Shown one piece after another: positions 13,553 to 28,481 of a stretch of DNA of 36,438 nt. The position numbers and the translations under genes were made by a program. Location: positions 1 to 36,438 of the IMG/VR virus record IMGVR_UViG_3300046794_000164. One strand, written 5' to 3'. This DNA is from a virus. How positions within the stretch are numbered: position 1 is the stretch's first letter; each line of letters starts with the position of its first letter. The notes beneath the pieces were generated by a model. It had not been told where the DNA came from, did no database searches, and was given only the letters and a program-made list of their open reading frames with translations.

Positions 13553-14371
13553 ATGCATACCTCTAATACCGATGTACAGGCCCTCAAAAAGCCCGCGACA
13601 CATTTCATTCAGCAGCAAAACGTGGCGCGTACCACGATGTCTTCTCGCGAGATCGCCAGCGTCACCGGCAAGCGTCACGACAACGTGAAGCGCACCATTG
13701 AAGATCTGGCTGCAAGCGGGTTGGTCCAGCCTCAATCTGAGGATGAATGGTCCAGAGATAAATTGGATCGACCTCGCGCCACACGCATCTACAACGTGTG
13801 CGAGCGAGACAGCTACGTCATCGTGGCTCAACTCTCTCCGGAGTTCACCTCCAAGCTGGTAGATCGCTGGCAGTCGCTTGAGCGCGTTGTCGCTGGTATG
13901 GCGCCGCAACCAACCAACAATTCCAAGATCGTCGGCGAACTGGCCATCCTGGAATGCTTCGACCGTCTGCTCAAGCCAGCGCCGTCCAGCAAGATGATGA
14001 TGCTGGCCCAGATCGCCGCAAACAACGGGCTCGACGCCAAGTTCCTGCCCGGCTATGCCGTAGACGCCGCCCCTGATGCGGCTGGCGGGTCTTCCATGCT
14101 GACCAAGGCCGTTACCGCCCTGATCAAGGACAACGGCATCAGCAGCACTGCGCCCGGCTTCAACCGCGCCCTGGCTGCCCATGGTTTCCTCAAGACCATG
14201 CAGCGCAGGAACTCCAAGCAGGAAATGGTCGACTTCTGGTCCGTCACCGATAAGGGCCTCAAGTACGGCAAGAACCTCACCAGCCCGCAATGCCCCCGCG
14301 AGACGCAGCCTCACTGGTACGTCGATCGCTTCCTCGAACTGGCCGACTTGATCGGCAAAGGCAGCAAGTAA
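13553..14371 (+). CDS. Rha-family phage regulatory protein
   Basis: The N-terminal part (about residues 25-110) matches the phage regulatory protein Rha family. MSSREIASVTGKRHDNVKRT is the winged-helix start, followed by RIYNVCERDSYVIVAQLSPE and LVDRWQSLE. The C-terminal half (about 130-272) is a separate domain, probably DNA-binding (GYAVDAAPDAAGG, then DFWSVTDKG). I use ATG 13553, which has GAGG 8 nt upstream, rather than the GTG at 13541. Its stop overlaps the next start (TAATG). Rha proteins can interfere with phage growth under some host conditions. Here it leads the replication operon. Confidence 0.82.
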   Translation: MHTSNTDVQALKKPATHFIQQQNVARTTMSSREIASVTGKRHDNVKRTIEDLAASGLVQPQSEDEWSRDKLDRPRATRIYNVCERDSYVIVAQLSPEFTSKLVDRWQSLERVVAGMAPQPTNNSKIVGELAILECFDRLLKPAPSSKMMMLAQIAANNGLDAKFLPGYAVDAAPDAAGGSSMLTKAVTALIKDNGISSTAPGFNRALAAHGFLKTMQRRNSKQEMVDFWSVTDKGLKYGKNLTSPQCPRETQPHWYVDRFLELADLIGKGSK

Positions 14372-15165
14372 TGGCCGGAGACTGGATAAAAATGCGCATC
14401 GAACTGCAAACTCATCCGAAAGTGTTCCGCATGGTGTCCGCATTGAAAGCGGACAGGCTGCGGATCATCGGTGGACTGCACATCGCCTGGAGCATCTTCG
14501 ACACTCATTGTGATGATGGTGTGCTGGTGGGTTACACCACTGATGCGATGGATGCCGTGATCGGCTGGCCGGGCTTCACCCAAGCGATGATTGACGTGGA
14601 GTGGGCGGCCTTGAACGACTCTGGAAGCCTTGTAATGCCTCGCTTTGATGAGCATAACGGCAAGAGTGCTAAGCGTCGCGCCAACGACAATGAGCGGAAG
14701 CGTAACGACCGTAATACCAAGGACGTCCGCAATTTGTCCGCTAGTGATGCGGACAAAAAGCGGACCAGAGAAGAGAAGAGAAGAGAAGATAAAGATCAAA
14801 AGCCTTATGGCGATGATGCAGTCGACTCGGCTGAACTGTTCGCCCGGTTCTGGTCGCTGTATCCCCGCAAGGTTGGCAAGGAGGCTGCACGCAAGGCGTG
14901 GGACAAGCTCACCCTGACCGCCGAGCTGTTCGAGGTGATGGTTCAGGCGCTGGGCGCGCAGAGCGTCAGCACGGAATGGACCAAGGACAACGGCCAGTTC
15001 ATCCCGCACCCGTCGACATGGCTCAACGGCAAGCGCTGGGAAGACGAAGTGCCCGAGCCGGCGCCTGCTGCAAACAATGTCCACCCGTTCCCGCCGCGTC
15101 GTCAGGCCAACGGTCCAGACTTCGATAGTCGAACCTGGGCTGAGAATCTGGATGGTGGCCTGTGA
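14371..15165 (+). CDS. Replication initiator, lambda O-like
   Basis: The 264-residue protein begins with a winged-helix-like N-terminal domain (MAGDWIKMRIELQTHPKVFRM and on to about residue 100). A very basic, charged linker follows (about 100-148, KRRANDNERKRNDRN), and then a C-terminal domain with FWSLYPRKVGKEAARKAWDKL-type residues and GQFIPHPSTWLNGKRWEDE. That C-terminal signature is common in phage replication proteins. The linker DNA holds the probable origin, as in lambda gene O, so initiator and origin are nested. It is coupled upstream to the Rha gene (TAATG) and downstream to the P-like gene (GTGA). Confidence 0.82.
   Translation: MAGDWIKMRIELQTHPKVFRMVSALKADRLRIIGGLHIAWSIFDTHCDDGVLVGYTTDAMDAVIGWPGFTQAMIDVEWAALNDSGSLVMPRFDEHNGKSAKRRANDNERKRNDRNTKDVRNLSASDADKKRTREEKRREDKDQKPYGDDAVDSAELFARFWSLYPRKVGKEAARKAWDKLTLTAELFEVMVQALGAQSVSTEWTKDNGQFIPHPSTWLNGKRWEDEVPEPAPAANNVHPFPPRRQANGPDFDSRTWAENLDGGL
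14425..14465. repeat. Four-part palindromic array, copy 1 (candidate origin)
   Basis: This 41-bp array reads TTCCGC-5-GTCCGC-7-GCGGAC-5-GCGGAT. The inner pair is a perfect GTCCGC-N7-GCGGAC palindrome, and the outer hexamers each differ at one base. It has the same spacing as copy 2, exactly 300 bp downstream. Confidence 0.8.
14725..14806. other. ori: Probable replication origin: iteron array copy 2 plus purine tract
   Basis: At 14725-14765 four hexamers form a perfectly symmetric array: GTCCGC-5-GTCCGC-7-GCGGAC-5-GCGGAC. It is followed at once by a 23-nt all-purine run of AGAGA-type repeats (14767-14789) and an A-rich stretch to about 14806. Iterons inside the initiator gene followed by an easily melted asymmetric tract is the layout of lambda ori within gene O. 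Confidence 0.75.
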
Positions 15166-15944
15166 ACAAGCAGAAGCCGCCGAGAAGCGCGGCTCAGCTT
15201 ATGAACACCGCTGGTGCGACCACCGACCTGCGCGCAGCTGTTGGCAATTACCAGCCGCCTGCGTTGCCAGTCATGCCGAAGACACTGCCGCCCGGGACGA
15301 TCGATGTCGTCAACGCCTTGTTCAAGGAACTGCAGGCCATCTTCCCGGCGTGGAAACAGGCATGGCCGACCGATGACGCGCTGGATTCCGCCAAGCGCAG
15401 CTGGATCAAGGCATTCATCGTCGAGGGGATAACTCAGCTGGAACAGATCCGATTCGGCGTTGAGCGTTGCCGTTCGCTGGGTACGGACTTCATGCCTAGC
15501 GTGGGTAGGTTCATCAGCTTGTGCCAGCCAACGCCGGAAATGTTGGGCATCCCGTCGCACGACAAAGCGTTTCGCGAGGCACTGGATAACTCCCACCCGA
15601 GCAGGTTCGGCGGCCGCACATGGTCCCACCCAGCCGTGCGTCACGCTGCGCTGCAATGCGAGATGCACAACCTTGGCGACCTGGTGCCTGAGAAGGCCAG
15701 CGAGGTATTCGACCGGGCCTATGAAATCACCATACGCCGTCTGGTCGCAGGCCTACCGCTGGAAGACATCGCCATCGGCATCGGCCACGACGACCAGAAG
15801 ACCGAACGGGAGTTGGCCGAGGAATTTGCCAATCAGCGTCAAGCACGGCTGCTGGATGTTCAGGGCATTCCATCCAACGGCGGCGCCGCGCGAGCGCAGC
15901 TTCTGGCCAAGTTCGGCAGGAAGAGCAAGGAGCAACGGGCATGA
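15162..15944 (+). CDS. Replication protein P-like helicase loader
   Basis: The 260-residue protein follows the initiator with a GTGA overlap and starts with GTG. It has the layout of the replication P family. A proline-rich, disordered N-terminus (about 1-45) is followed by a helical domain including VNALFKELQAIFPAWKQAWP and KRSWIKAFIVEGIT and GTDFMPSVGRFISLC, and a charged C-terminal region. P-type proteins bring the host DnaB helicase to the initiator at the origin. The next gene (ninB) overlaps its stop by four bases. Confidence 0.85.
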   Translation: MNKQKPPRSAAQLMNTAGATTDLRAAVGNYQPPALPVMPKTLPPGTIDVVNALFKELQAIFPAWKQAWPTDDALDSAKRSWIKAFIVEGITQLEQIRFGVERCRSLGTDFMPSVGRFISLCQPTPEMLGIPSHDKAFREALDNSHPSRFGGRTWSHPAVRHAALQCEMHNLGDLVPEKASEVFDRAYEITIRRLVAGLPLEDIAIGIGHDDQKTERELAEEFANQRQARLLDVQGIPSNGGAARAQLLAKFGRKSKEQRA

Positions 15945-27977: not shown

Positions 27978-28481
27978 ATGACGCTCATAATCGAGGACGG
28001 CACCGGGAAGCCGGACGCCGACAGCTTCGCCACGGCTGCTGAACTGGTTACCTACGCTGCGAACTATGGCGCGGCCGTCCCGGCAGATACGCCAGGCCAG
28101 GAATCCCTATTGCGCCGCGCTGCTCTGGCCATGGACGGATACACCTGGAAAGGCACCCGCACCAACGGCGAGCAGGCCTTATCGTGGCCGCGCCGAGACG
28201 TAACCATCGACGAGCGAACCTTACCGTCCGAATCCATTCCTGTCCGCATCAGAAGCGGGCAGATGGCGCTTGCCGCCGAGATCCACCAGGACGACATCGA
28301 TCCGATCGAGAAACGTAAAGGCGCGGTGACGCTGGAGCGTGTCGAAGGGGCGGTGACTCGCGAGTACGCCACGATTCCGAACACAAGCGGCCGACTGTTG
28401 CCGGCGGCGCCAGGTCGGCCCAGCGCCACGCAGTTTGCTGATTACCTGCAGCGGCGCGGGTTGTTTGCTGTCCGTGCTTAG
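27978..28481 (+). CDS. Head-tail connector (DnaT-like family)
   Basis: The 167-residue protein matches a family often annotated 'DnaT-like ssDNA-binding' but always found in the head-tail connector region. It has IIEDGTGKPDADSFATAAEL at the N-terminus, a SLLRRAALAMDGYTWKGTRT segment, QALSWPRRDVTIDERTLPSE and YLQRRGLFAVRA at the end. The WPR and dGxxxpDADSy motifs are family hallmarks. In structure it is most likely a neck/adaptor protein that binds under the portal. Confidence 0.85.
   Translation: MTLIIEDGTGKPDADSFATAAELVTYAANYGAAVPADTPGQESLLRRAALAMDGYTWKGTRTNGEQALSWPRRDVTIDERTLPSESIPVRIRSGQMALAAEIHQDDIDPIEKRKGAVTLERVEGAVTREYATIPNTSGRLLPAAPGRPSATQFADYLQRRGLFAVRA

Follow-up and report, generated by a model that had tools for sequence, protein, structure and literature searches.

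Two palindromic arrays built on one hexamer lie in the replication initiator gene of the viral record analysed here (36,438 bp; this whole 36.4-kb stretch is referred to as the window), the second of them beside a purine tract, and selection acts at the DNA level on both arrays and on the tract. The reading that we favour, with a probability of about 0.8, is that array 2 and the tract constitute the core of a replication origin and that the same initiator also uses array 1, for pairing or control. Judged from sequence comparison, the most likely place of the origin core is array 2 with its (AGAGA)n tract, and array 1 is most likely a further site of the same protein, which could act in pairing (handcuffing) or in self-regulation. 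The first-pass annotation had placed a probable origin inside the initiator gene, and this stands as the best reading given conservation in relatives and constraint at synonymous sites; binding by the initiator and origin activity are predicted, as are strand opening and any loop or control function.

The initiator gene and its arrays

The gene that holds both arrays had been named an initiator gene beforehand, which its match to PHROG 9474 bears out (Table 1). The gene order is a Rha/antirepressor-like gene, the initiator gene, the lambda P-like loader gene and then NinB-like and NinG genes. The encoded protein comprises an N-terminal winged-helix domain, a charged linker, in the coding sequence of which array 2 and the purine tract are found, and a variable C-terminal domain. 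An AlphaFold model of the initiator is confident over approximately residues 10-90, corresponding to the winged-helix domain, and the structural neighbours of this predicted domain are mostly of the winged-helix type; a fold search with Foldseek returned generic winged-helix-level matches only (E above 0.4). By profile, by its MAGDWIKM start and by the presence of both arrays and the tract, the gene fits the epsilon15-type initiators (PHROG 2509/9474), and its product shows 62% identity to the epsilon15 protein across the N-terminal 125 residues.

Table 1. Positions of the initiator gene, its neighbour and the DNA elements within the window
Feature	Position	Strand	Description
Replication initiator gene	14371-15165	+	264 aa; PHROG 9474 E 1.6e-87, PHROG 2509 E 1.3e-57
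Lambda P-like helicase loader gene	15162-15944	+	Pfam PF06992 E 6.1e-32; PHROG 109 E 5.6e-56; directly 3' of the initiator gene
Array 1	14425-14465		TTCCGC-atggt-GTCCGC-attgaaa-GCGGAC-aggct-GCGGAT; 6-5-6-7-6-5-6; N-terminal coding region
Possible weak outer half-site of array 1	14414-14419		ATCCGA; mean 3.73/6 in relatives; weak
Extra outer half-site of array 1	14471-14476		GTGGAC in the window; GCGGAC exact in 29/49 relatives, mean 5.47/6; 11-bp ladder kept
Array 2	14725-14765		GTCCGC-aattt-GTCCGC-tagtgat-GCGGAC-aaaaa-GCGGAC; 6-5-6-7-6-5-6; linker-coding part, abuts the purine tract
Purine tract	14767-14789	+	(AGAGA)4AGA, period-5; candidate strand-opening element; codons invariant
Least stable 50-mer of the initiator gene	14768-14817		Tract and AT-rich sequence 3' of it; nearest-neighbour energies

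The sequences read as the first-pass annotation had them: the two arrays have a common layout and inner pair, with changed outer hexamers in array 1, and the 23-nt purine tract lies beside array 2, from which a single C (14766) separates it. In both arrays the half-sites are spaced on an 11-bp ladder (6+5) about a 7-bp centre. Array 1 was found to span more than had been described (14414-14476). Counted by gene nucleotide, its strong sites are those at nt 54, 65, 78 and 100, and that at nt 89 (14460-14465) is weakly conserved; 30 of the 31 glycines encoded at the outer half-site 14471-14476 use the codon GGA.

The inner palindrome, GTCCGC-N7-GCGGAC, occurs exactly twice in the 36,438 bp, both times in the initiator gene, and was never found in 100 dinucleotide shuffles. 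With up to two mismatches allowed, five matches were observed in the window versus 3.7 expected, so the surplus near-matches can be attributed to chance, and neither whole-window nor whole-record searches detected additional arrays above chance elsewhere in the phage. A palindrome with one mismatch (GTCCGCATCAGAAGCGGGC) lies at 28242-28260, the count of such near-matches being at chance level. According to nearest-neighbour energies, 78 of 80 relatives have the purine tract within their least-stable 5%. A GC-skew profile did not show a clear turn at the site.

Selection at the DNA level

Both inner palindromes of the window encode S-A-x-x-A-D in the same frame, which would fit arrays that are by-products of protein coding and have no role as DNA sites. 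Comparison among relatives makes this explanation hardly credible. Elsewhere synonymous conservation is approximately 0.45, and it rises to peaks of 0.7-1.0 at array 1, at array 2 and at the purine tract. Among 37 divergent relatives, which were picked by protein pattern and not by array presence, most codons of the array 1 core are identical in 94-100% of same-residue pairs versus approximately 45-50% elsewhere, with Arg fixed as CGC, Ser as TCC, Ala as GCG and Asp as GAC, while the arginine after the core is encoded by AGA or AGG in most of these relatives. Array 2 shows the same codon fixation. The comparison that the first-pass annotation had suggested, of conservation in relatives and at synonymous sites, thus places both arrays far above coding constraint. 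The peak of constraint also shifts with the array, as codons 15-35 and 46-60 score 0.72 and 0.46, respectively, in the GTCCGC class versus 0.43 and 0.82 in the GTCACG class; the clade sets in this comparison were picked for exact palindromes, which makes it partly circular at the hexamer positions, a circularity of which the 37-relative set is free.

Relatives differ in the frame in which they read the AGAGAAGAGAAGAG tract, and all three frames are used (frame 0 in 129, frame 2 in 28 and frame 1 in 3). At one locus (L575, 682-1160), array 2 and the tract are encoded in another reading frame, and the N-terminal part carries four direct GTCCGC repeats with 11-bp spacing and a start, VADEWIKV, that is related to MAGDWIK. 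At another (L129, 1880-1930; GTCCGG class), the initiator reading frame ends at a stop codon within the linker array and the array and tract straddle the gene end, in an assembly that is possibly faulty. Taken together, the three-frame tract, the frame change in L575 and the stop in L129 show that the DNA itself is under selection. Synonymous shuffling gene by gene separated observed from shuffled scores only moderately well (observed scores of 19-24 versus shuffled maxima of 18-23), and it is the comparative tests that bear the argument. Coding coincidence was accordingly ruled out by the synonymous constraint, AGA/AGG arginines included, by the three-frame tract and by the blind matching of hexamers described below, since other classes code different residues elsewhere and yet their hexamers match.

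One further codon shows a bias. The Asn codon of the conserved HNG motif (14656-14658 in the window) is AAC in 49/49 GTCCGC-class genes, and in the GTCACG class it is AAC in 16 genes and AAT in none. This could represent a third DNA-level element, or a codon preference.

Both arrays carry the same hexamer

The linker hexamers found in related initiators are GTCCGC, GTCACG, GTCACA, GTAACG and GTCGCC, and distant MAGDWIKM-type initiators have the common architecture and the tract with different hexamers. In a survey of the linker layout that covered 362 distinct genes, the 5-7-5 arrangement scored at least 19/24 in 216/356 relatives versus 27/7,240 random positions. Upstream scans with a gene's own linker hexamer gave scores of 21.1, 19.7 and 18.3 of 24, compared to 12-17 for most other hexamers. 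Moreover, when perfect 6-7-6 palindromes were searched upstream blindly, the hexamer recovered was identical to that of the linker for 76 genes out of 80, whereas pairings made by shuffling agreed in 35 on average and in no more than 47.

This matching holds across different positions of array 1, which lies at gene nt 54 in HPKV genes, with the inner palindrome at nt 65, and further in, at nt 137 with the inner palindrome at nt 148, in the DDPAV clade. On a tree of the N-terminal domain from which the array codons had been removed, hexamer classes cluster, with 8 changes for array 1 and 7 for array 2; this small number of switches means that independent co-switches are few and that near relatives swell the raw counts. 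GTCACA genes, for example, are nested within the GTCACG clade, and both of their arrays have changed. As far as can be read from these sequences, both arrays change hexamer together in evolution.

Binding of the arrays by the initiator is a prediction, and another protein, either a repressor or a host factor, could be the one bound at both. This seems very unlikely, as the presence of array 1 tracks the type of N-terminal domain and the hexamer classes cluster on the tree of that domain. A host factor in particular is unlikely because the same GTCCGC arrays are found in relatives from Pseudomonas, enterics, Burkholderiales and xanthomonads, some environmental assemblies being further sources of relatives.

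Distribution and possible role of array 1

When viral contigs were searched with the DNA of array 2 and the tract alone, 70 distinct loci were recovered; 65 of these have an exact array 1 at a distance of 276-312 bp on the upstream side, and a MAGDWIK-type start is seen in all except L575 (69 loci). Of 16 phage records, 15 hold exactly two copies of the palindrome, both of them in the initiator gene, and the remaining record holds one. The 15 include epsilon15, where both arrays and the purine tract are present. Of the 52 HPKV-type genes whose linker holds a GTCCGC palindrome, 51 have array 1, as do most genes of the DDPAV type. WDDPR-type initiators keep the linker layout (13 with GTCCGC), and the upstream array was found in 0/40 of them. 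Array 1 is therefore not needed at every such origin, and its limitation to some clades suits a role in control or assistance more readily than one as a strict necessity. The WDDPR-type loci that have a GTCCGC linker and lack array 1 include L232, L252, L262, L286, L293-L295, L303-L306 and L308, so that this hexamer is also used by another N-terminal clade. The idea that this clade offsets the absent array by extra linker half-sites was set aside as unconvincing (5.9 versus approximately 5).

The distance of exactly 300 bp between the arrays, to which the first-pass annotation had drawn attention, is true of the window and is not conserved, with values of 264-342 bp in the GTCCGC class and 189-258 bp in other classes. 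Exact spacing or helical phasing is not supported as a requirement. With spacing that is variable and not clearly phased, a rigid loop gains no support.

The favoured model would operate as follows. The N-terminal winged-helix domain would read the GTCCGC half-site along the 11-bp ladder about the 7-bp centre, initiator molecules would gather on array 2, and the weak duplex of the purine tract would open beside it; the bound initiator would then recruit the lambda P-like loader, which would deliver the host helicase. The same initiator would also assemble on array 1, which has no melting tract and lies within the part of the gene that encodes the DNA-binding domain. Array 1 would most likely pair with array 2 across approximately 190-340 bp, allowing co-operative loading or handcuffing-type control, and could additionally block transcription of its own gene.

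Alternatively, array 1 may be an autoregulatory operator only, at which the initiator would bind, 54-100 bp inside its own gene, and stop transcription, with array 2 alone serving as the origin. An operator would suit the location of array 1 early in the gene, its lack of a melting tract and the freedom of its exact position (nt 54 or approximately 137), as well as a further matched palindrome that precedes the start of the Rac-like MN652886 ydaU by 33 bp. However, array 1 is located within the coding region and not over a promoter, and one clade exists without it. Taking both sides into consideration, pure autoregulation has a real chance of being correct, though clearly a minority one, and pairing of the arrays, for co-operative loading or handcuffing, is favoured over it with low certainty. 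In a broader form, the favoured model would describe a widespread type of origin with two co-evolving arrays, one in the code of the DNA-binding domain and one by a frame-neutral (AGAGA)n tract, which fires only when the arrays pair; we hold this form to be possible, at slightly below even odds. If it is true, the origin specificity and the domain that reads the sites would move as a unit.

Comparison with known systems

Origin sites inside the initiator gene have been reported for lambda, SPP1 and pSK41 (PMC7466680, PMC6316719, PMC5703833). As in lambda, the predicted origin has repeat sites midway through the initiator gene, an asymmetric, easily melted tract alongside and a P-type loader gene next. 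The first-pass annotation had set the palindromic arrays against direct repeats in lambda, a contrast that was overstated, since in lambda, too, the single iteron is an inverted repeat, imperfect and 19 bp long (PMC7466680), which is the length of the 6-7-6 unit of the window. The systems differ in that the window half-sites form one palindromic array on an 11-bp ladder, whereas lambda has four to six iterons in line, and in the purine (AGAGA)n tract and the second matched array upstream in the gene. Pfam, searched at E up to 1, gave no lambda O match for the window initiator, and PHROGs 9474 and 2509 are distinct.

The RepA_N initiators of pSK41 type have a winged-helix N-terminal domain, four central Rep boxes in the rep gene, a dispensable linker and a variable C-terminal domain (PMC5703833). 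The window gene has a broadly similar plan, and the pSK41-type Rep structures 4pql, 5kbj and 4pt7 are among the top PDB neighbours of its predicted N-terminal domain, at Z scores (5.4-5.6) that are tied with those of unrelated winged helices and lie in the common winged-helix range. No RepA_N domain (PF06970) was found in the window initiator with Pfam at E up to 1, and, unlike the present case, a second array in the domain-coding part is not described in the passages of the review considered (PMC5703833).

SPP1 gp38 binds two separate regions, oriL (in gene 38) and oriR (PMC6316719), and thus resembles the window in having two regions for one initiator, one of them in its own gene, although binding is predicted here. 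The SPP1 sites are approximately 13 kb apart and both have direct repeats and AT-rich tracts, whereas those of the window lie in one gene, with a melting tract beside only one of them. RctB of Vibrio cholerae also combines one initiator with two kinds of site; these are reported to be separate activating and inhibitory types (12-mers and 39-mers) that differ in length, while the window arrays have the same hexamer and layout (PMC5395669).

Origins within initiator genes are already known. A second, co-varying site with the same hexamer, in several hexamer classes and inside the coding part of a DNA-binding domain, was not found in the open-access literature searched, nor were papers on EEKRREE or on the origin of epsilon15. 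The arrays allow origins and specificity codes to be predicted across a large group of temperate phages, classical epsilon15 included, and provide natural matched protein/DNA pairs from which site reading by a winged-helix initiator could be learned. A two-array origin would also be a clean test case for looping or handcuffing in a phage origin, and the frame-neutral purine tract is an instance of DNA selection overriding the reading frame.

Domain exchange and the ydaU genes of Rac

The C-terminal domain encoded behind the same array varies, with a DnaT domain in epsilon15 and no such match for the window protein in Pfam. Similarly, the YdaU proteins of K-12 and of MN652886 have a common C-terminal half and differ in their N-terminal halves and repeats. 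Both observations would be compatible with linker DNA that is conserved mainly as a recombination seam for swapping the C-terminal half of the initiator. We regard this explanation as improbable, since a seam leaves the matching hexamer upstream and the palindromic 5-7-5 layout unexplained and may be an effect of a conserved origin and not its cause. With regard to the favoured reading of the arrays as initiator sites, the YdaU pair suggests that the N-terminal domain and its sites travel together.

The Rac-like ydaU of MN652886 (L538:1195-1620) carries GTAACG-N7-CGTTAC at -33, +160 and +367 from the gene start. The ydaU of E. coli K-12 (L540:8472-8578) encodes a different N-terminal domain and has, in its linker region, the repeats TGTTCAAACA and their inverse. 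The origin oriJ of the K-12 Rac prophage was considered as direct evidence and dropped because the N-terminal domain and the repeats of K-12 YdaU differ. The linker repeats of K-12 ydaU are candidates for the sites of oriJ.
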